Assembly: GCA_002839805.1 (NCBI GenBank)
Contig: PGYT01000025.1
Location: 1 to 37,608 of the forward strand
Direction of reading: 5' to 3'
DNA: 37,608 bases
Source: Ignavibacteriae bacterium HGW-Ignavibacteriae-2
Lineage (GTDB): Bacteria > Bacteroidota > Ignavibacteria > Ignavibacteriales > Melioribacteraceae
Shown here: one piece after another, positions 1 to 30,258 of the stretch
Layout of the letters: each line of letters begins with the position of its first letter
Numbering within the stretch: the stretch's first letter is position 1
Program-made: the position numbers and the translations under genes
Notes under the pieces: model-generated
Database searches by the model: none
What the model saw: the letters and a program-made list of their open reading frames with translations, nothing else
Told to the model about the DNA's origin: nothing

Positions 1-393
1 CACTACATAGGCATGAAGAAAATAATTCCTGAAGCGATTCCTGAACTAAAAATTATGCCTTTTTTAATCGGTTTTCTTATTCTCTTCGGATTAGTGGCAG
101 CGTTTCTTAAAAAGAAATCGTTAGTGATGGTTTGGATTTCCACAATCGTCATGATGATGATAATTGGACTATATGATTTTTATATATGGGGCTATGATTA
201 CGGACACGATCTAAATCCTGAGGCCCCAATTAAAATTCCGGGTATGGTTTATCAGCCTCCACTAATAGGGTCAAAACAATTATTAAATATGAACTCGGTT
301 TCACTACCCGACATAGGCGCATATCTCATAGGAATATCTCTATTAATTGCCGTGTTTGTTTTAATAAATCGAAAATTTATCAAAGGAAAATAA
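1..393 (+). CDS. Nos-cluster membrane protein, 5'-truncated
   Basis: The frame is open to the left edge (His-Tyr-Ile-Gly precede the Met at base 13), so this is most likely the C-terminal part of a longer protein, not a gene starting at base 13. About three hydrophobic segments are visible (near residues 16-33, 38-60 and 100-120 counted from that Met), with a polar stretch between the second and third containing WGYDYGHDL and the line PGMVYQPPLIGSKQLLN. I associate this type of protein with nos clusters of Bacteroidota-like bacteria, where it sits next to nosL; its biochemical role is not known to me. Its stop overlaps the nosL start by one base, so the two are translationally coupled. No start site or promoter can be assigned because the gene runs out of the window. 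Confidence 0.75.
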   Translation, partial: HYIGMKKIIPEAIPELKIMPFLIGFLILFGLVAAFLKKKSLVMVWISTIVMMMIIGLYDFYIWGYDYGHDLNPEAPIKIPGMVYQPPLIGSKQLLNMNSVSLPDIGAYLIGISLLIAVFVLINRKFIKGK

Positions 394-845
394 TGAAAGG
401 TGTTTTGTTTCTCACAGTAATTATATTTGTTCAATTTATAAATGGATGTTCAAACTCTCCATCACCAATAAATTATGGAGAAGACAATTGCGAATACTGC
501 CTCATGCTGATAACCGATCCTAAATATGGATCGGAATTGATGACCGACAAGGGAAAAATTTATAAATTTGATTCAGTGGAATGTTTGGCGGCATATTCAT
601 TTAAAAATGATCCTCTAAACAATTGGACTAAATGGGTAACTGATTTTTATAATCCAAACAATCTTATAAATCTAAAGTCGGCTTATTTCCTCAAATCTCA
701 AAAACTAAGAAGTCCCATGGGACTAAATTTGAGTGCTTTTTCTAAAGGGGATCATTTGCAAACGATCCGGAATGAATTTGGAGGAACGAAAATCAGTTGG
801 ATAGAATTAGCTAAATATGTATCGGAAGAATGGGATGAAAATTAA
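393..845 (+). CDS. nosL: NosL copper-binding lipoprotein
   Basis: Likely copper chaperone for nitrous oxide reductase maturation, anchored by lipid on the periplasmic side. A hydrophobic leader ends in Gly-Cys at residue 19 (lipobox-like). It is followed by C33-x-x-C36-x-M38, matching the CxYCxM metal site expected in NosL (sequence CEYCLM). The length of 150 residues fits the family. The start is chosen because it overlaps the stop of the upstream gene by one base and has AAAGG about seven bases before it. The 3' end overlaps nosD by 11 bases. The order membrane protein-nosL-nosD-nosF-nosY is typical of clade II (atypical) nos clusters. The assignment rests on motif, size and position together; the overall sequence is divergent. 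Confidence 0.88.
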   Translation: MKGVLFLTVIIFVQFINGCSNSPSPINYGEDNCEYCLMLITDPKYGSELMTDKGKIYKFDSVECLAAYSFKNDPLNNWTKWVTDFYNPNNLINLKSAYFLKSQKLRSPMGLNLSAFSKGDHLQTIRNEFGGTKISWIELAKYVSEEWDEN

Positions 846-2085
846 ATTTCCCCCAGTGATTGTGCTGTTCTTATTATCACTTGTAAATATTGAAATTTTT
901 GGAGGAATCTTTCACGCGGGTCCCAATTATCAATTAAAAAACCTGGAATCCGCGTTAAAAATTATTTCACCATACGATACAGTAATAATTCACCAGGGAA
1001 AATATTTCTCAAATAATATTATAGTAAACAAGCCTGTTGTTATTATCGGTTTGGGCCGTGCCGTTTTGGACGGTCTGGGCAAAAATCAGATAATGTTTAT
1101 AAAGTCGGATGATGTAATTATAGAAAATATGACGTTCATAAATTCAGGCATAAGTTTTATCGATGACAACGCCGCAATCAAACTGGATTCAGTCAGTAAC
1201 TGTAAAGTGATTAATAATTTTTTTGAGGATAATTTTTTCGCTATTTATCTTGCCCGCACGTCAAACTCAACAGTATCCGGAAATATAATTAAGGCAAAAA
1301 ACAAAAAAGAATCTTATTCAGGCAACGGCATCCATTTGTGGTACAGCAAAAATGTGGAAATTAGCGATAATAGAATTACAGGACATAGGGACGGTATTTA
1401 CCTTGAATTCGTACGCAGCAGCAATATCACAAATAACCTTAGTTGGAAAAACCTGAGGTATGGTCTTCATTTTATGTTTTCGGACAGCTGCAGTTATTCC
1501 GGAAATGTATTTCAAAACAACGGCGCCGGAGTGGCAGTTATGTTTACACGCCGGGTTGAAATGTTCAACAATAAATTTGAAAATAATTGGGGAGGCGCAG
1601 CATACGGAGTATTACTAAAAGAGATATTCGACAGTAATATTTATAATAATTATTTCTATAAAAATTCAAATGGACTTTATATGGAAGGCTGCAACAGAAT
1701 AAATATAAAGAACAATGACTTCGTGGAAAATGGCTGGGCAATAAGATTGATGGCAAATTCCATGGATAATAATTTTACCGCTAACAATTTTTCGGGAAAT
1801 TCTTTTGATGTATCTACAAATAACATTAAAAATTTCAACACTTTTTCGGGCAATTACTGGTCTGAATATAATGGATATGATCTTAACAAAGACGGGATAG
1901 GCGATATCCCTTTCCGGCCTGTCTCTCTATTCTCACTTATTACAGAGCAAAACCGCTCATCACTTGTTTTATTACGCAGTATGTTCGTTGAATTATTAAA
2001 TACAGCCGAAAAAATATTTCCTGTACTTACACCCGAAACATTGATTGACAATTCACCCAATATAAAAAAGATAAATCATGATTAA
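835..2085 (+). CDS. nosD: NosD periplasmic parallel beta-helix protein
   Basis: NosD supports assembly of the copper centre of N2O reductase together with the NosF-NosY transporter. The protein (416 residues from this start) has a signal peptide-like N-terminus (MKIKFPPVIVLFLLSL then polar). The body consists of short repeats with many Asn and Gly, such as NSTVSGNII, NVEISDNRI and NITNNLSW, the right-handed parallel beta-helix (CASH/PbH1) pattern. A frame extension begins six codons earlier at 817, inside nosL; the ATG at 835 is preferred because it puts the signal peptide directly at the N-terminus and gives an 11-base overlap. The 3' end overlaps nosF by eight bases. Family membership is clear from the repeats and the nos context; its exact molecular role is poorly known in any organism. 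Confidence 0.9.
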   Translation: MKIKFPPVIVLFLLSLVNIEIFGGIFHAGPNYQLKNLESALKIISPYDTVIIHQGKYFSNNIIVNKPVVIIGLGRAVLDGLGKNQIMFIKSDDVIIENMTFINSGISFIDDNAAIKLDSVSNCKVINNFFEDNFFAIYLARTSNSTVSGNIIKAKNKKESYSGNGIHLWYSKNVEISDNRITGHRDGIYLEFVRSSNITNNLSWKNLRYGLHFMFSDSCSYSGNVFQNNGAGVAVMFTRRVEMFNNKFENNWGGAAYGVLLKEIFDSNIYNNYFYKNSNGLYMEGCNRINIKNNDFVENGWAIRLMANSMDNNFTANNFSGNSFDVSTNNIKNFNTFSGNYWSEYNGYDLNKDGIGDIPFRPVSLFSLITEQNRSSLVLLRSMFVELLNTAEKIFPVLTPETLIDNSPNIKKINHD

Positions 2086-2788
2086 AGTCACTAATCTTAA
2101 CAAAAGCTTCGGAAGTTTGGAGGTACTGAAAAAAATTGATCTGGAATTCGTTCCTGGACAGATAACTTATATCGTTGGTCCAAACGGATCAGGAAAATCC
2201 ACTTTAATAAAAATAATTCTCGGTTTGGTTAAATCAGATTCCGGAGATGTTTGGGTGGGCGATTACATGTTAAACGGTGATTGCCATTATAGGGATAAAA
2301 TTGGATATATGCCTCAATCGGCAAGCTTCCCGGAAAATTTAACCGTAACAGAAGTATTTAAAATGCTTAAAGATCTTAGAAACAATAAAGATAATTTAGA
2401 TGAGTCACTTATTAAGGAACTGAATTTGGATAAAGAATTGAATAAACGTTTGGGGAATCTTTCGGGGGGTACAAAACAAAAGGTTAGCGCGGCTATTACT
2501 TTTCTATTTAATCCTTCTATACTTATTCTTGATGAGCCCACCGCTGGTTTGGACCCTGTTTCAAGCAGCATCCTTAAAGATAAAATTAAAAAAGAAAAGG
2601 AAAATGGGCGTACAATAATCCTAACATCGCATATATTAAGTGAATTGGAAGAACTGGCTGACAATGTGGTTTTTATTCTGGAAGGCAGTATAAAATTTTC
2701 CGGTAAAATAAACCATTTAATAGAAAAAACTTCTTCTTTAAATCTTGAAAGAGCAATGGCTGCTTTAATGAATGGACAATTAATATGA
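2078..2788 (+). CDS. nosF: NosF copper-maturation ABC ATPase
   Basis: ATP-binding subunit of the NosFY transporter for N2O reductase maturation, at the inner face of the cytoplasmic membrane. The 236 residues contain a full set of ABC motifs: Walker A GPNGSGKST (34-42), Q-loop Gln80 (GYMPQS), signature LSGGTKQK (128-135), Walker B ILILDEP (148-154) and switch His185. The signature LSGG-T-KQK is usual for ABC-2 partners. It overlaps nosD by eight bases and nosY by four (ATGA), indicating a tightly coupled operon. On sequence alone it would only be an ABC-2 ATPase; the nos name comes from its position between nosD and a six-helix permease. Confidence 0.92.
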   Translation: MIKVTNLNKSFGSLEVLKKIDLEFVPGQITYIVGPNGSGKSTLIKIILGLVKSDSGDVWVGDYMLNGDCHYRDKIGYMPQSASFPENLTVTEVFKMLKDLRNNKDNLDESLIKELNLDKELNKRLGNLSGGTKQKVSAAITFLFNPSILILDEPTAGLDPVSSSILKDKIKKEKENGRTIILTSHILSELEELADNVVFILEGSIKFSGKINHLIEKTSSLNLERAMAALMNGQLI

Positions 2789-3576
2789 ATTTATTATTTA
2801 AAATTTCCAGTTACCAATTACGAGATGTTATAAGAAGTAAATGGATCTTTTTTTATACAATTTTACTTATGATAATAAGTTATAGTTTAATTTCTCTCAC
2901 AAAAGAACCGGCAAAAATATTAATTACTATGTTGAACATTAATCTCATAATCGTTCCGCTAATAAGTCTTATATTCGGAACAATTTTTTTATACAACAAC
3001 AAAAACAACATAATTTTTCTATTATCCCAGCCGATAAAAAGAAATGTTTTGTTTCTTGGACTTTACATTGGATTGATACTACCTATTATTTTAGGTTTTC
3101 TACTCGGTGTCGGAATACCAATTCTGTTTTATGTAAAAATTTTTTCCAACTACGCTGAAACAATATTTCTTCTTCTGACGACAGGAATAGTTTTAACTAT
3201 AATTTTCGGCGGTGTAGCGTTTTATATATCTATAAGCAACGAGGACCGAATGAAGGGTTTGGGCATATCTATTATTGTTTGGCTGTTTCTTTCGATTTTT
3301 TATGACGGTCTGCTGTTAATAATATTTCAAACATTCGCCGATTATCCTCTGGAAAAAATTTCCGCGTTTCTTATAATGTTTAACCCCATCGATTTAACAC
3401 GCATTTTGGTTGTTATAAACTTCGATGTTTCAGCACTTATGGGATATACGGGCACTGTTTTTAAGAATTTTTTTGGCGGTAATTTAGGTGTGCTGATTTC
3501 GGCATTAATGCTAATGTTCTGGTCTATACTTCCGCTTTATTTGGGATTAAGAAAATTTAAAGCGAAAGATTTTTAA
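2785..3576 (+). CDS. nosY: NosY ABC permease
   Basis: Membrane subunit of the NosFY transporter. The 263 residues have about six hydrophobic segments (roughly 20-40, 50-72, 90-112, 125-148, 158-183 and 235-255), the arrangement of ABC-2 type permeases. A cytoplasmic N-terminus with the basic stretch RDVIRSKW precedes the first helix, as in other NosY proteins. ATGA overlap with nosF shows translational coupling. What the transporter moves is not settled for the family; a sulfur species for the copper-sulfide site has been proposed. The next gene follows after 26 bases on the same strand, so the operon may continue. Confidence 0.9.
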   Translation: MNLLFKISSYQLRDVIRSKWIFFYTILLMIISYSLISLTKEPAKILITMLNINLIIVPLISLIFGTIFLYNNKNNIIFLLSQPIKRNVLFLGLYIGLILPIILGFLLGVGIPILFYVKIFSNYAETIFLLLTTGIVLTIIFGGVAFYISISNEDRMKGLGISIIVWLFLSIFYDGLLLIIFQTFADYPLEKISAFLIMFNPIDLTRILVVINFDVSALMGYTGTVFKNFFGGNLGVLISALMLMFWSILPLYLGLRKFKAKDF

Positions 3577-13091: not shown

Positions 13092-13401
13092 TTAATTATT
13101 CTGTTTATTGAATTTGATAAAATTAAGAAAAGAATATTAGAAATACACTAAATATGTATCAATTCAGTACAACATTGTTATAGATATAAAATGAATCGAT
13201 TAAATATTCCATCAATATTTTCTGCAATTAAAGTATTCCTCTAAAAACAGAATAAATTTAAGAGTAGTTGATAGACATCAGTATTGTTAAAATTAAGTTA
13301 GACGGACGTTTTATTTTACTGAAAAATTATTCCAAATTCTTATTTAATTAATACATAATCATATAGACATTTATATATATAATTTGTATTTATATTCATA
13401 T
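13092..13401. other. Divergent promoter region, kinase operon / lipoprotein
   Basis: About 310 AT-rich bases between the histidine kinase gene (minus) and the lipoprotein gene (plus). It should hold promoters in both directions. I found no GG-N10-GC element, no strong hairpin and no credible small gene here. Confidence 0.6.
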
Positions 13402-17895: not shown

Positions 17896-17999
17896 GCCAG
17901 TTTAAATTTGTGTTAGTAAATGAACCCCTATTTAATAATTATTCTTAATTTACGGTCATACTTTTTTTTGGAAATTGTTCAATTAACTTGTTTGGTAAA

Positions 18000-20852
18000 A
18001 TGAAGTTAAAACAAACATTAACATTGCTCCTGACTGTTTCGATGGTAAGTTTTGCCCAGAACACAAGCGGTAAGCTGTTTTTTTCCCATGAAGCCGGAAT
18101 TTACGAACAAAACTTCAGCCTGGAAATTTCCGCTGAAAATCCGGGCGCATTAGTTATTTATACATTGGATGGAACTGATCCGCGATTTTCAAAAACAACA
18201 TTCACACAGACAAGTCCTTTTAATGTATTTCTAAACCCCGACAATACTTTTCAAAGAGATAGAGCGCCGGGTATTGTAATTAGAGCATGTGTTAAGGCTG
18301 ATACGATTAATATAGAAGATGTTTATACGCATACTTATCTTTTTATTAACAGAATAATTGCTCTATCTCCAAGCGATCAAATTCCTGGTCCCGGTTGGCC
18401 CGCGCCTAACAGCATTTCGCAAAGAATGGATTATGGTTTGGACCCCTATGTATATAATGACATCAGATACAGAGATTCTATAAAATCGGCGTTTTTAGCA
18501 ATTCCGGTAATTTCTCTCGTTACCGATTTAAACAATTTATTTAACAAGGATACTGGAATTTATGTTAACGCCCGGCAGCACGGTATCGACTGGGAAAGAT
18601 TCACTTCAGTTGAGTTATTAAATAATTTTGGAAATAAAGGTTTCCAGATCAATGCAGGTTTGCGTATACGTGGCGGCTACACGCGTGACGATCAATTTCC
18701 GAAACACTCTTTCAGGCTTTTTTTCAGAGGAGAATACGGGAAAACAAAATTAAATTTTCCTCTGTTCGAAGACGAAGGCGCCGATATTTTTGATAAAGTG
18801 GATTTAAGAACCGCACAGAATTACGCTTGGAGTACCGACGCGGTCGGAGCAGAAAACAATGTGATGAATAGAGATGTTTTTTCGCGTGATACGCAAAAGG
18901 ACATGAATCAACCTTACACAAGAAGCAGGTATTACCACCTTTTTATAAATGGAACATATTGGGGGCTATATCAAACCGAGGAGCGCCCGGAAGCTGATTA
19001 CGCAGAAACATATTTTGGAGGCAATTCCGAAGATTACGACGTGGTAAAAGTGAATCAGGAATTACCTAATTTCAGATATGAAATTGAAGCTACAGACGGC
19101 GATTTGAATGCCTGGAAATACATTTGGGATCTTATAAATGTTAGTTCAATCGATAATACAACCTTCTTTAAACTTCAGGGATTAAACTCCGACGGTACCC
19201 GTAATTTTAATTATCCAGTATTGCTGGATTACGATAATCTAATAGATTATATGCTTGTGATATTTTTTTCGGGAAATAAAGATGCACCAGTTACACTTAA
19301 CGGCAGGTACCCTAATAATTTTTATGCAATTTATAATAGAAAAAGCAACGAGGGATTTAAATTTATAACACATGATTCTGAGCACGCTCTTTTATACAAT
19401 GATTTACATATCAATATTGTAACTCGCAGCACACCCGTAAGCGAGTTTCGCCACTTTCATCCCAACTATCTGCATTACAAGTTAAAGGGCAATTCTGAAT
19501 ATCGCCTTCGTTTTGCGGACAGAATCTACAAACATTTTTATAACAACGGCGCTTTAACGCCCGATAAAACGGTACCAAGATTTAAATTTCGCGCAAGTCA
19601 AATTGAAAAAGCTATAATTGCAGAATCGGCAAGATGGGGCGATGTTTGGACAACTAAACCAAGAACAAAAGACGATGACTGGCTGCCGGCGATTAATAAT
19701 CTAGAAAACATTTATTTGCCTCTTCGCACCGGTATTGTGTTGCAACAATTAAAGGGTGATAATTTATTCCCTCAGTTTGATCCTCCAATTTTTAATAACA
19801 ACGGAATTGTAATTAAAGAATCGGTACTCAATGTAGAATCTGGTTACAAAGTTTCTATCTCCAAAGGTTTTTCAGGCAATGGAATTATTTATTATACCTT
19901 GAATGGAGACGATCCCAGAATGCCCGGCGGTGTTATTTCGGCAAATACATATCAATCGGATTCTGATAAAATAATAGAAATTAATTCTTCAACAACAATT
20001 AAGGCAAGATTAAAATACAATGGCAACTGGAGCGCTCTTCATGAAATAACTTTTCTAGTTGACGATGTTCTAGAAGATTTAAAAATAACAGAGATCCATT
20101 ATCATCCTTTGGATGAGGGTGAAATAAATGACAGAGAGTTTGAGTTTATCGAACTAAAAAATACAGGGAACTCATTAATTAATCTTACAGAAGTCAAATT
20201 CACAAAAGGTATTTTTTATACATTTCCCGCGGGTTCTGTTCTAAATGCAGGGAATTTTTTAGTGCTGGCTTCCAATCCTTCCAAGTTTCTATTGAGATAT
20301 AAGTTTGAACCGTTCGCTGAGTATGATGGCCAATTGGATAACAATGGTGAGAAGATTGTACTTCAAAATGCTTTGGGCGATACTATCACTTCAATCAGGT
20401 ATTACGACACAGAACCATGGCCGGTTTTAGCTGATACTGGAGGACACTCTTTAGTGCCAAAAGATATTAATGCAGCGGGAAATCCTAACGATGCTAACAG
20501 CTGGAGAGCTTCATTAGAAATACATGGATCCCCCGGAAGGGACGATACTATAATGGATATAACCGAGGATGAAGGGAAAATACCCCCTTATCGATACGAG
20601 TTATATCAAAATTATCCAAATCCGTTTAATGGGAACACAAAAATTTCATTTTCTATACTCGAATCCGCGAAAGTTACTCTGATAATTTATGACCTGCTCG
20701 GAAGGAAACTTACAACACTTACGAATAAAATATTAGAGCCTGGCAATTATTCTGTACTATGGAATCCCGAAAACGAAGCCTCGGGTGTTTATTTCTATCA
20801 ACTTACCGCGGACAGATTTATATCAACTAAAAAACTCGTGCTGCTTCGATAA
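18000..20852 (+). CDS. Large T9SS-exported CotH / lamin-tail protein
   Basis: A 950-residue exported protein. Signal peptide (1-19, MKLKQTLTLLLTVSMVSFA). An N-terminal chitobiase C-terminal-like beta domain (about 25-110; IYTLDGTDPRFS) is followed by a CotH-like region (about 185-500; LRIRGGYTRDDQFPKHSFRL, GLYQTEERPE, KFITHDSEHALL). A second YTLNGDDPR domain lies near 610-680, a lamin-tail-like domain (LKITEIHYHP, FEFIELKNTG) near 685-830, and a T9SS sorting domain begins near 865 (YQNYPNPFNGNTKISF). CotH is a spore-coat protein kinase in Bacillus; whether this protein phosphorylates or scaffolds is unknown. The frame extends to a TTG at 17988, but the ATG at 18000 starts the signal peptide directly. 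It lies among glycosidases. Confidence 0.88.
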   Translation: MKLKQTLTLLLTVSMVSFAQNTSGKLFFSHEAGIYEQNFSLEISAENPGALVIYTLDGTDPRFSKTTFTQTSPFNVFLNPDNTFQRDRAPGIVIRACVKADTINIEDVYTHTYLFINRIIALSPSDQIPGPGWPAPNSISQRMDYGLDPYVYNDIRYRDSIKSAFLAIPVISLVTDLNNLFNKDTGIYVNARQHGIDWERFTSVELLNNFGNKGFQINAGLRIRGGYTRDDQFPKHSFRLFFRGEYGKTKLNFPLFEDEGADIFDKVDLRTAQNYAWSTDAVGAENNVMNRDVFSRDTQKDMNQPYTRSRYYHLFINGTYWGLYQTEERPEADYAETYFGGNSEDYDVVKVNQELPNFRYEIEATDGDLNAWKYIWDLINVSSIDNTTFFKLQGLNSDGTRNFNYPVLLDYDNLIDYMLVIFFSGNKDAPVTLNGRYPNNFYAIYNRKSNEGFKFITHDSEHALLYNDLHINIVTRSTPVSEFRHFHPNYLHYKLKGNSEYRLRFADRIYKHFYNNGALTPDKTVPRFKFRASQIEKAIIAESARWGDVWTTKPRTKDDDWLPAINNLENIYLPLRTGIVLQQLKGDNLFPQFDPPIFNNNGIVIKESVLNVESGYKVSISKGFSGNGIIYYTLNGDDPRMPGGVISANTYQSDSDKIIEINSSTTIKARLKYNGNWSALHEITFLVDDVLEDLKITEIHYHPLDEGEINDREFEFIELKNTGNSLINLTEVKFTKGIFYTFPAGSVLNAGNFLVLASNPSKFLLRYKFEPFAEYDGQLDNNGEKIVLQNALGDTITSIRYYDTEPWPVLADTGGHSLVPKDINAAGNPNDANSWRASLEIHGSPGRDDTIMDITEDEGKIPPYRYELYQNYPNPFNGNTKISFSILESAKVTLIIYDLLGRKLTTLTNKILEPGNYSVLWNPENEASGVYFYQLTADRFISTKKLVLLR

Positions 20853-26533: not shown

Positions 26534-27952
26534 TTATTGAAATTGAATTGCGGGAATTGTGATGATGAAAATCGTACCATTGGGCAGATTATTTTTTATC
26601 TCAATGTGCCCCATCATTTGTTTTATAATTACCGAAACAAGACTTAATCCGAGACCATACCCCTTTACTGATTCTGTGTTTTTTCCACGATAAAATTTAT
26701 CAAATATTTTATGCCGTTCTTCTTCGGGTATCCCATAGCCAGAATCAGAAACTGAAATAATAATATTCTCATTATCAGAATTTATATTTACAAACACTTT
26801 TGTATGATTAGGATCAGAATATTTAATAGCGTTATCGATAAGATTTGAAAGTGCAATAGCAAAATATTGTGCATTCCCTTTCACGCTTAAATTTTCTGAA
26901 GTACTAAAGAAAACGTTTTTATCGCTATACTTTGTAGCAATCTGATCTTTAATTAATTTATTTAAATTAAATACGGTTGGATAGTATTGTGTCGTATCAG
27001 ATTCCCGAGCTAATATTAAAAGAGTTTGAACAATGTTTATCATATCGTTTGTCTTGTCATGCAAAATATTAAGCGTTTCTTTGTACTCATTAATATTTCT
27101 TTCTTTTTTCAAAATAAAATCTAATTCTGATTTAATAGTTGTTAGTGGAGTCATTAATTGATGGGAAGCGTTGTTCGAGAATTCGGAAATTTGAGTGATC
27201 TGATTTTCGAGACGGTCAAAGAGATTATTTAAAGTATCTTTTAATCTAGTATAAACATCTTTTTTATTAGCTTTGAATTCTATACGTTTTGAAATATGTT
27301 TTGCGGAAATCTGATCTGCCAAGTCAATTATTTTATTGAGTCTAGAGTAAACTCTGCTCGAAACATATAAGGAAATAATAATAATTAGAATTAAAATAAT
27401 GGGAAGTGTGATTAAATTAAAAATCTCAAACTCTTGAATAAAATTTGTTACATCTGATCTATTTGTCGCCAATTGAATTAATACTCTCTCACCATTATCC
27501 AAATATTTATAAACAACCCTAAGTTCCTGTCCATTAAAATCTATATTGTCTTTGGTGATTCCGGATTTAAGAGGCGGGAATTTTAGTGGAATTGAACCAA
27601 ATCGTAAAACATTTGAACTAATAAATAATATTTTGCCTGAAGTGTCATAAATTTGTAAGAAATACGAGTTCTCCGAAACTAATAAAAACTCTTCTTCTTC
27701 AAATTCCCTGTTACTGTAAAAAAATAGGCTATCATCTTTAAAATCAATAAATTTATCCACATGCTCTAATTCATGAATTATTTTTTTATCCGATTCAATA
27801 TCAACTATATCGACCAATTTAATAAACGCGAATAAATTGAATAAAATATAAAACCCAAAAATTACCCCTGAAATTAATAAGGTAGTTCTGGTGATTGAGG
27901 AAAATAATATATCTTTAGTGCTATTCTTCAAGTAAAATATATCCTTCACCAT
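26534..27952 (-). CDS. Membrane sensor histidine kinase
   Basis: A 472-residue class I kinase. Membrane segment 1 at about 23-45, periplasmic sensor of about 130 residues, membrane segment 2 at about 178-198, HAMP linker (about 198-250), HisKA with His264 (ASHQLMTPL), then the ATPase domain with NLIDNAIKYSD, SDSGYGIPEEE and GYGLGLSLV. The H-box reads HQLMTP instead of HELRTP, a variant seen in some OmpR-linked kinases. The start at 27952 overlaps the regulator gene by 32 bases; an in-frame TTG at 27931, nine bases after AAGGAT, would shorten it by seven residues. It forms a two-component pair with the preceding regulator and sits next to the divergent octaheme cytochrome gene. Confidence 0.9.
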   Translation of the reverse strand: MVKDIFYLKNSTKDILFSSITRTTLLISGVIFGFYILFNLFAFIKLVDIVDIESDKKIIHELEHVDKFIDFKDDSLFFYSNREFEEEEFLLVSENSYFLQIYDTSGKILFISSNVLRFGSIPLKFPPLKSGITKDNIDFNGQELRVVYKYLDNGERVLIQLATNRSDVTNFIQEFEIFNLITLPIILILIIIISLYVSSRVYSRLNKIIDLADQISAKHISKRIEFKANKKDVYTRLKDTLNNLFDRLENQITQISEFSNNASHQLMTPLTTIKSELDFILKKERNINEYKETLNILHDKTNDMINIVQTLLILARESDTTQYYPTVFNLNKLIKDQIATKYSDKNVFFSTSENLSVKGNAQYFAIALSNLIDNAIKYSDPNHTKVFVNINSDNENIIISVSDSGYGIPEEERHKIFDKFYRGKNTESVKGYGLGLSLVSVIIKQMMGHIEIKNNLPNGTIFIITIPAIQFQ

Positions 27953-28589
27953 AAATGTTTTTAATTAATTTTTTATCGCAGTTTAATTCAATTTTTTTTC
28001 GAAGATTTTTTATTGTTGATTCAACAATGTTCGTCTCAGGTGTAAAATTGTAATTCCAAACATTTTGACAAATATTTTCTCGGTTTAATATCATGCCTTT
28101 ATTTTCAATAAAATACTTTAAAAGATCAAACTCTTTTTCTGTTAATTTTACTTCGGTATTTTCAACGAATAGCTTGTGTTCAACAAGATTAAGTCTCATT
28201 TTTCCGAAAATTATTTCAATATTAATGGGAGATTTCCTTCTAATAACGGCATTAATTCTTGCAAGCACTTCATCGAACGAAAACGGTTTTGTAATGTAAT
28301 CATCGGCGCCAATATTTAGAGCTTCAACTTTGCTTTTAACATCCGTAACAGCTGTAAGAAGAATTATCGGTATATTAAATCCCTTTTTCCTTAAAATTTT
28401 GCAGACTTCCAATCCGCTTTTTTGCGGCATACGCCAATCCAAAAGAAGAGCGTCAAATTTTTCTTTTTCAAAAATTGTGAGCGTTGCATTGCCGTCCGAA
28501 GTTATTTCAGATTCTATATTTTCATCGGCGAAATTTTTTCTTAAAGAATTTGCAATAGCAGCATCATCTTCTGCAATTAGAATTTTCAT
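27921..28589 (-). CDS. OmpR-family response regulator
   Basis: A 222-residue DNA-binding regulator. The receiver domain (1-115) has the acidic pair EDD (7-9), phospho-acceptor Asp51 (ALLLDWRMP) and the Lys of ITKPF. The C-terminal winged helix (about 125-220) has VKLTEKEFDLLKYF, the recognition-helix region TNIVESTIKNLRKKI and the end GEGYILLEE. AGGT lies just before the ATG. It overlaps the kinase gene downstream. Being divergent from the multiheme cytochrome gene with 157 bases between, it may control that gene; this is inference from position. Confidence 0.92.
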   Translation of the reverse strand: MKILIAEDDAAIANSLRKNFADENIESEITSDGNATLTIFEKEKFDALLLDWRMPQKSGLEVCKILRKKGFNIPIILLTAVTDVKSKVEALNIGADDYITKPFSFDEVLARINAVIRRKSPINIEIIFGKMRLNLVEHKLFVENTEVKLTEKEFDLLKYFIENKGMILNRENICQNVWNYNFTPETNIVESTIKNLRKKIELNCDKKLIKNIYGEGYILLEE

Positions 28590-28746
28590 TTAAAACCTAT
28601 CTATATGTCAGAAAATTATTCGTTTAAATAATCCTTGGAACTATAGTAATAATGAAAAAAAAATCATAATTGTTTTAGTGACAATTAGACAAACACATCT
28701 TAATTTTTAAATAGAATAAAAAACTCTTATTAATCTGGAGATATAG

Positions 28747-30210
28747 ATGAAAACAAATCTACTAATTTTAATTATAACTTCTTTTTTTATGCTGATTACT
28801 AAAGTTAACGCGCAAGATTATGCAGGCAGCAACGCATGCAAAACTTGTCATTCAGCAAAACACAGCGATTGGCTCACATCAGGTCATCCATATAAAATAC
28901 AAAAACTTGAAAATGGACAAGCTCCTGTATATCCATTATTGTCTTCACATAAAGTTGTTGGACCCGACGTTGATTATATACTTAAACCCGGCGTTCCCCA
29001 GCCTCCAAAAGGATATACCTGGGATCAGGTTGGCTGGGTAGTTGGCGGTTTCCATTCTAATGCAAGATTTCTGGACAAAGAAGGATATCGAATAATAGGG
29101 GACAGCGCTCAATACAACCTTATTTCCAATAAATGGGTTGCTTACGAAGGAACAACACCAGGAAAAGCCTCATATTCTTATTCATGCTACAAATGCCACA
29201 CAACCGGAGCAAGTCCTGTAAAGAATGCAGAATTCCAAGCATATCCGGGTATTGAAGGCAGTTGGGTTGAACAAGGAATAGGCTGCGAAGGATGCCACGG
29301 TCCAGCAAAAGCTCATACAACAAATATTACCATTAAACCAACCAAAAATGGTTATGAATCGTGTAACAATTGTCATGCTCGCGACCGCGGGGAATCATTT
29401 GCCTGGAACGAAAGAGTTGAATGGAGAGCTCAAACAGTTGGCGGAATTTCTACTGGTTTTATTCGTCACCGTGAGCAAGGCGATATGATGGGAGCTTCAA
29501 AGCACGCGGCAGTTGGTTTCACATGTGCTACTTGCCACGAACCGCACAAGAGCGTTTATTATGAAAATGGAGGTTTAAAATCGACTGTTAGCTGCGAATC
29601 TTGTCATCAAAATAAAGAAATTCCCGGACATGGTTTGGCACAAGCTCAATGTGTTGACTGCCATATGCCTTTTGCAGCTAAAAATGGCGATGTAAAAACT
29701 TTTATTGTCTCGGAACAAAGTGCTCACTTCTGGAATATTATTACAGATCCCGTGACTATGTTCGGTAACTTGGATACAATTTCGGGTTTCAAATTTATTA
29801 AAAAAGATGGCAGTGGAATGTCTGGCTTAACATTAGATTATACTTGTGTGCAGTGTCATACAGACAAAGATGTTAACTGGGCCTCCCAATACGCGAAAAA
29901 TATACATGCGGGTATAACATCTGTAGCACAAAATAGCGAAATTCCAAGCGCCTATACATTAGGCCAAAACTATCCTAATCCGTTTAACCCAAGTACAACA
30001 ATCAATTTTAGCGTGCCAAAATCAGGCCGTGTAACTTTGAACATTTACTCTATAACAGGTGAATTGGTAGAAACACTTGTTGATAATGAAATGAACGCGG
30101 GCAGACACAGCGTAGAATTTAATGCTGGCAATATATCAAGTGGTATTTACATATATTCGATTAGTGCCTCTAATTTTAAATTCAGCAGAAAAATGATGCT
30201 TGTTAAATAA
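28747..30210 (+). CDS. T9SS-exported octaheme c-type cytochrome
   Basis: A 487-residue secreted cytochrome with signal peptide (1-22, ending VNA). It has eight CXXCH heme sites beginning at Cys 31, 147, 180, 206, 260, 283, 302 and 367. A long stretch without heme motifs (36-146) separates the first site from the rest. From about residue 401 there is a T9SS sorting domain (YTLGQNYPNPFNPSTTINF up to the C-terminal KLM-type end), so the protein should cross the outer membrane and be surface-bound or released. Layout resembles cytochrome c554 / doubled-CXXCH families, not a canonical nitrite or hydroxylamine enzyme. GGAG precedes the ATG by seven bases. Roles could be extracellular electron transfer or a surface reductase. 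Confidence 0.92.
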   Translation: MKTNLLILIITSFFMLITKVNAQDYAGSNACKTCHSAKHSDWLTSGHPYKIQKLENGQAPVYPLLSSHKVVGPDVDYILKPGVPQPPKGYTWDQVGWVVGGFHSNARFLDKEGYRIIGDSAQYNLISNKWVAYEGTTPGKASYSYSCYKCHTTGASPVKNAEFQAYPGIEGSWVEQGIGCEGCHGPAKAHTTNITIKPTKNGYESCNNCHARDRGESFAWNERVEWRAQTVGGISTGFIRHREQGDMMGASKHAAVGFTCATCHEPHKSVYYENGGLKSTVSCESCHQNKEIPGHGLAQAQCVDCHMPFAAKNGDVKTFIVSEQSAHFWNIITDPVTMFGNLDTISGFKFIKKDGSGMSGLTLDYTCVQCHTDKDVNWASQYAKNIHAGITSVAQNSEIPSAYTLGQNYPNPFNPSTTINFSVPKSGRVTLNIYSITGELVETLVDNEMNAGRHSVEFNAGNISSGIYIYSISASNFKFSRKMMLVK

Positions 30211-30227: not shown

Positions 30228-30258
30228 AAAAAGCCGTCCATATGGACGGCTTTTTTTT
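30228..30258 (+). terminator. Strong rho-independent terminator of the cytochrome gene
   Basis: A perfect inverted repeat runs from 30228 to 30255, centred in CCATATGG, with a GC-rich stem (GCCGTCC / GGACGGC) and eight T on the plus side. It begins 18 bases after the stop codon. The A run on the left side means it can also work for the convergent hydrolase gene. Confidence 0.93.

Follow-up and report, generated by a model that had tools for sequence, protein, structure and literature searches.

The known cytochromes on the outer surface of Gram-negative bacteria are mainly described as lipoproteins, porin-bound complexes or filaments. Among multiheme enzymes of solved structure, MccA, the octaheme sulfite reductase of Wolinella succinogenes, carries a cysteine-bound copper at heme 2. 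OcwA of Thermincola potens is described as a terminal reductase at the cell surface, with nine hemes, a C-terminal three-helix bundle and a beta-sheet domain at residues 75-156 that is common to MccA (PMC6703420). In the same description, hemes 2 and 5 of OcwA are open, heme 2 serves as active site in OcwA as well as in MccA, the histidine pair HH281/282 sits above the open heme 2, and nitrite is reduced, if slowly (PMC6703420). OmhA is likewise described as surface-located and has been tied to ferrihydrite reduction (PMC7829351). From species, heme number and location, OmhA is probably the S-layer undecaheme cytochrome of Carboxydothermus ferrireducens deposited as PDB 6qvm.

Our window, the whole stretch of 37,608 nucleotides that was analysed, is contig C144 of the assembly of Ignavibacteriae bacterium HGW-Ignavibacteriae-2 (4.16 Mb, 147 contigs, 99.9% completeness). 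It encodes a c-type cytochrome that joins eight heme motifs to a sorting tail of the type IX secretion system (T9SS). We propose that this octaheme is a T9SS-delivered surface oxidoreductase that passes electrons to an external acceptor, with an MccA/OcwA fold, an open heme 2 and two-component control, and we assign this reading a probability of about 0.52. It is based on the tail, the T9SS genes, the fold, the conserved histidines, the gene cluster around an orthologue in genome G224, the link to a regulator and an upstream palindrome. The gene and its product comprise the following features:

28747-30210, forward strand: T9SS-tagged octaheme c-type cytochrome, 487 residues, ATG start
28747-28812, forward strand: signal peptide at about residues 1-22, type I as judged by eye
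28837-28851, forward strand: heme 1 motif CKTCH (residues 31-35)
28951-29169, forward strand: beta-domain between heme 1 and heme 2 (model strands 48-120, that is, full-length residues 69-141)
29185-29199, forward strand: heme 2 motif CYKCH (residues 147-151), candidate open heme by analogy with OcwA and MccA
29284-29376, forward strand: heme 3 (residues 180-184) and heme 4 (residues 206-210) motifs
29458-29505, forward strand: FIRHREQ...SKH segment (residues 238-253) with conserved H241 and H253
29524-29859, forward strand: heme 5 to heme 8 motifs (at 260, 283, 302 and 367)
29971-30198, forward strand: T9SS type A C-terminal sorting domain (residues 409-484), from profile matches
30233-30258, forward strand: hairpin and T-run past the stop codon, terminator-like by eye

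The CXXCH motifs start at residues 31, 147, 180, 206, 260, 283, 302 and 367 and contain all 16 cysteines of the protein, and about 30 residues lie between heme 8 and the tail. The tail scored 41.9 bits against Pfam PF18962 (cut-off 27) and 38.4 bits against TIGR04183 (cut-off 23; 42.5 bits in the genome scan). Motif positions and profile scores thus bear out an earlier note on this DNA, which had seen eight CXXCH motifs and a sorting domain in one 487-residue protein; the N-terminus, inspected by eye, looks like a type I signal peptide, and the note had listed a signal peptide. A chance combination of motifs was rejected, as homologues retain both parts: in three of them, at 37-42% identity, neither the tail nor any of the eight hemes is lost. 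No other CXXCH protein was found among the window's ORFs of at least 80 residues. PF22113 matched the octaheme only partially, and TIGR04315 (octaheme tetrathionate reductase) was absent among its 14 NCBIfam matches with E values up to 1.

A first model of the whole mature protein (28 rows) reached a mean pLDDT of 62.7, with most of model residues 162-388 being poor. In this model the tail forms an Ig-like beta-sandwich, for which Foldseek returned weak matches to the T9SS entries 8glk (E = 1.9e-3) and 8qb1 (E = 2.5e-2; which we take to be a T9SS C-terminal domain) as well as to many unrelated Ig folds. Modelling the cytochrome part by itself (54 rows, no hemes placed) gave a pLDDT of 81.2 and a pTM of 0.82. 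Compared with solved structures, this second model matched MccA (Z 17.4 over 334 residues), OcwA (Z 16.8 over 292) and the undecaheme cytochrome (Z 14.1 over 275), while the fourth row scored Z 5.6. The same three proteins led the profile search of the PDB (OcwA 104, undecaheme 89 and MccA 79 bits). As modelled, the octaheme domain has the MccA/OcwA fold. The stretch between heme 1 and heme 2, placed correctly at residues 36-146 by the earlier note, had been regarded there as a 110-residue gap untypical of an electron wire; this view was rejected, as the stretch is modelled as an OcwA/MccA-type beta-domain.

Each of the described proteins differs from the window octaheme in some respect. MccA (PDB 4rkm/4rkn) is the best fold match and has eight hemes likewise, but its heme 8 motif is long-spaced, whereas that of the octaheme is an ordinary CVQCH at residue 367, and it has no counterpart of the T9SS tail. 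Because the octaheme has no cysteine outside its heme motifs, it should lack an MccA-type copper site. OcwA (PDB 6i5b) shares the fold, the beta-domain between hemes 1 and 2 and, by profile, the region of hemes 1-4; its HHLQYPEWLMTGH after heme 4 resembles the FIRHREQ...SKH segment and may be equivalent to it. In contrast to the octaheme with its eight hemes and T9SS tail, OcwA has nine hemes, a three-helix bundle and a Gram-positive envelope to reside in, and its surface location is described, whereas that of the octaheme is predicted. The C. ferrireducens protein has the same fold over the shared part, but differs by its eleven hemes, its monoderm host and the lack of a T9SS tail. Cytochromes of the MtrC/OmcA type are decahemes, with ten hemes versus eight here.

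We then considered the heme ligands. Six histidines outside the CXXCH motifs (190, 241, 253, 267, 327 and 387) occur in all 30 class rows, and a seventh, H47, in 29 of 30 with one gap; the eight hemes thus have seven such histidines between them. Among the 28 rows of the wider family, 25 have H241 and 26 have H253, and the others are unsubstituted apart from gaps. Aligned with MccA by eye, six of the conserved histidines pair with a histidine, while H241 has no partner. By analogy, H241 may be placed above heme 2 as HH281/282 is in OcwA. One heme would be without a conserved histidine as sixth ligand. Because of the analogy with OcwA and MccA, this open heme is most likely heme 2. A phmmer match to a nitrite reductase had made the FIRHREQ stretch a candidate for a catalytic histidine; this was dropped, as NrfA enters the structural alignment near heme 4 and seems to be in another register.

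A subclade of nine of the 30 rows, to which the window belongs, has H241 further from heme 4 by 10-16 residues: the spacing is 32-38 residues, versus 22-23 in 18 rows and 29 in the three f46 rows. Ahead of ARF or its variants, HSN (seven rows) or WSN (two rows) replaces WK in this subclade. Lying beside the putative pocket, these changes look like the retuning of a substrate site. They would suit an enzyme, released or kept on the surface, whose open heme 2 reduces sulfite, nitrite, hydroxylamine, tetrathionate or another small soluble compound, as opposed to a protein that transfers electrons to extracellular solids. A soluble substrate also fits the fold, since MccA, the closest match, reduces sulfite and OcwA reduces nitrite too (PMC6703420). 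The missing copper site speaks against such an enzyme, though, as do the tandem 16- and 24-heme forms described below, which suit electron transfer better. Soluble substrates could moreover be reached in the periplasm, which would make T9SS export needless. Weighing both sides, we regard an enzyme dedicated to soluble compounds as rather unlikely.

The reading of the octaheme as a surface oxidoreductase depends on its export. From the tail, the earlier note had predicted that the protein lies outside the outer membrane, a view that absence of T9SS core genes would refute. Both SprA (977 bits) and PorU (968 bits) are encoded in the window genome, as is PorV (304 bits), whose gene adjoins that of PorU; for these three, that objection falls away. 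TIGR04183 has at least 128 matches in this genome, 125 of them over the cut-off (150 of 161 candidates scored). Two matches to the T9SS PorP family were both below the cut-off. The GldL and GldM models, used for PorL and PorM, had no match in the window genome, and none in the control genomes either. The SprA match (C49:9788-16166) shifts frame after 15649, the gene being split in the assembly. With its Por_Secre_tail over the cut-off, the octaheme is like other T9SS type A cargo, except that here the cargo is a multiheme cytochrome. A second T9SS-tagged protein, with CotH kinase and lamin-tail domains, is encoded at 17988-20852 of the window.

The tail is also a feature of the family. A profile search (E <= 1e-30) detected the octaheme in 30 of the 391 genomes of a class sample, and in a phylum sample 4 of 247 genomes gave a match to the cytochrome part with a single-protein query (E <= 1e-10). 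Since only 30 of 391 class genomes have the gene, and the sole other congener in the class sample is without it, the gene is an accessory trait. Por_Secre_tail (E <= 0.001) was found in 29 of 30 family proteins, which are 37-64% identical to the window octaheme; this set consists of the window protein and 29 of 30 family ORFs, a second ORF of locus L186 (off the contig, no tail seen) being omitted and a G307 fragment with a visible tail lying outside the set. In the one tailless exception, L164, the ORF runs off the contig.

A scan of named genome contigs turned up relatives in other phyla; it listed at least 333 relatives, of which the best 80 were kept. Among these, the tail exceeded the TIGR04183 cut-off in L027, L034 and L037 and the Pfam cut-off in L024 and L025, with L047 falling just below (26.1 versus 27 bits). 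Other phyla also have relatives without a T9SS tail. By eye, the N-termini of five Chloroflexota relatives resemble lipoprotein signals, and four Methanoperedens relatives (L026, L028, L030 and L035) have C-termini in which a Pro-rich stretch precedes a hydrophobic helix and basic residues, an arrangement that looks right for an archaeal sorting signal; no sorting model scored over its NCBIfam cut-off in the three Methanoperedens octahemes scanned. Plasmids gave three distant matches (23-26% identity). On a tree of 59 rows, the T9SS label takes 2 changes, versus a mean of 16.8 when shuffled; this tree leaves out L164, L186, L187 and L188, represents L166 by its complete unit alone and has long branches (L044, L025 and the outgroup), which make some placements unsure.

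Such tailless relatives, together with the missing GldL and GldM matches, could be taken to mean that the octaheme is a periplasmic cytochrome with a tail that is vestigial or unused for export. This is hard to reconcile with a tail that all but one of the 30 family proteins retain down to 37% identity, or with a genome that encodes SprA, PorU and PorV besides its many tail matches, and we consider a periplasmic location highly improbable. T9SS export of the octaheme, in contrast, is well supported as far as sequences can tell.

In some members, octaheme units are repeated in tandem before a single T9SS tail, giving 16 hemes in L027, L034, L163 and L168 and 24 hemes in L037. The two units of L027 are nearly identical. 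Three of the tandem chains are located as follows:

L037, 4266-8111: 24-heme chain on a Saprospiraceae contig
L027, 7944-10652: 16-heme chain on a Neomarinimicrobiota contig
L034, 6768-9458: 16-heme chain on a Prolixibacteraceae contig

These chains invite the idea of a pure relay or wire on the surface, devoid of a catalytic site, in which tandem copies extend the path to minerals or other cells. The window octaheme is a single unit, though, seven conserved histidines for eight hemes point to an open heme, and OcwA, of the same modelled fold, is described with two open hemes (PMC6703420). A role as mere wire thus appears quite unlikely to us.

For the surface oxidoreductase that we favour, the gene neighbourhood suggests a means of control:

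26534-27952, reverse strand: sensor histidine kinase (Pfam and NCBIfam)
27921-28589, reverse strand: OmpR/PhoB-type response regulator, divergent from the octaheme gene (Pfam and NCBIfam)
28653-28674, forward strand: palindromic element TGAAAAA(N4)TCATAATTGTT, predicted operator, starting 94 bases 5' of the start codon

The divergent two-component system that had been noticed earlier is confirmed, and its link to the octaheme is strengthened by a recurring neighbourhood: besides the window, regulator and kinase adjoin the octaheme in 15 of 30 fetched loci (with one ORF in between in L175), and several of the fetched loci are cut by contig ends. L170 has a kinase match at the contig end, and in L023 the regulators are less similar and lie several genes from the octaheme.

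An upstream scan covered 27 loci plus the window, with L166, L187 and L188 left out. A close regulator orthologue (phmmer E <= 1e-69) is present in 11 loci, counting the window, and the palindrome stands out in every one of them; these eleven sites were picked by eye and then scored with leave-one-out matrices, uncorrected for shared ancestry. Shuffled sequences scored as high in 0 of 200 cases in ten of these loci and in 1 of 200 in L021. None of the five loci with a distant regulator had a palindrome that stood out, with a G+C content of at least 0.50 upstream of four of them as a confounder; several A+T-rich loci without a regulator were negative too. Where no regulator is adjacent, the palindrome stood out in one of 12 loci (L183, 2 of 200 shuffles, at another position). 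Across the window, a degenerate palindrome pattern matched exactly once and once more with 3 mismatches, compared with an average of 0.06 in shuffles. The weaker copy lies at 13319-13341, about 40 bases 5' of an ORF at 13384. OmpR-type direct repeats were found neither in the upstream region of the window nor, apart from a few unshared ones, at other loci. From these patterns we infer that the regulator binds to the palindrome.

How electrons would reach a surface-located octaheme was approached through porins and other cytochromes. Two matches to the MtrB_PioB porin model in the window genome remained below the cut-off (best 16.1 versus 23 bits). As the window also has no further CXXCH protein among its ORFs of at least 80 residues, no path for electrons through the outer membrane came to light, which weighs against the surface reading. 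OmbB-type porins are described for other Ignavibacteria, and Geobacter-like porin-cytochrome complexes for Melioribacter and Ignavibacterium (PMC7399161). With such complexes reported in these two genera, a porin conduit may feed the octaheme. The earlier claim of a route unlike porin-cytochrome conduits is thus uncertain: no MtrB-type porin reached the cut-off, but an OmbB-type conduit may exist.

In genome G224, the cluster around the octaheme orthologue also encodes a cytochrome b, a hexaheme of the NapC type, proteins with 13 and 19 hemes and, as a second T9SS-tagged protein, a nonaheme. The window genome has a counterpart of this cluster on another contig (C5:159164-169284; L122 4164-14284), from which the octaheme is missing. 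It encodes a 914-residue nonaheme with a T9SS tail, a NapC/NirT-type hexaheme, a 23-heme protein, a protein that combines 16 hemes with a cytochrome b561 domain and a further cytochrome b561-type protein. A third T9SS-tagged multiheme protein, of 514 residues with nine CXXCH motifs, is found at C128:40936-42480 (L121 8936-10480). As separate observations, nosL and nosD (Pfam) lie at the start of the window ahead of ABC-transporter ORFs resembling nosF and nosY (13-3576), and on contig C42 an ORF that looks NosZ-like by eye (L123 11289-13235) lies near an octaheme with a Multi-haem_cyto domain.

Taken as a mechanism, the adjacent two-component system would govern expression of the octaheme via the palindrome. 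After Sec export, the precursor would receive its hemes in the periplasm, and T9SS would then carry it to the external side of the outer membrane or further out. Like OcwA on Gram-positive cells, it would act there as a terminal reductase that hands electrons to an external acceptor; the hemes of the octaheme would form the electron path, and the acceptor may meet the open heme, most likely heme 2. Secretion in vivo, the identity of the acceptor, the donor and the electron route across the outer membrane are the parts of this scheme that we infer.

Among openly licensed PMC papers, a scope that excludes preprints, we found none that joins T9SS to multiheme cytochromes. PMC5492636, on the respiration of Melioribacter roseus, makes no mention of the terms multiheme, octaheme, outer membrane, extracellular, secretion or sorting. 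On a broader scale, it is conceivable, if still doubtful, that this class and some other T9SS-bearing lineages possess a T9SS-based respiratory surface system, with octahemes, 16- and 24-heme tandems and nonahemes as cargo, a cluster of cytochrome b, NapC-type hexaheme and proteins of 16 and 23 hemes to feed them, and a dedicated two-component system as the switch. If true, such a system would explain extracellular electron transfer where its mechanism has been stated to be unknown. Delivery of a heme-loaded cytochrome via T9SS would, if it occurs, be a distinct route to the cell surface that is ready for a genetic test. If the window genome belongs to the organisms in question, the octaheme family, with its regulator and predicted operator, would be a concrete candidate for extracellular electron transfer.
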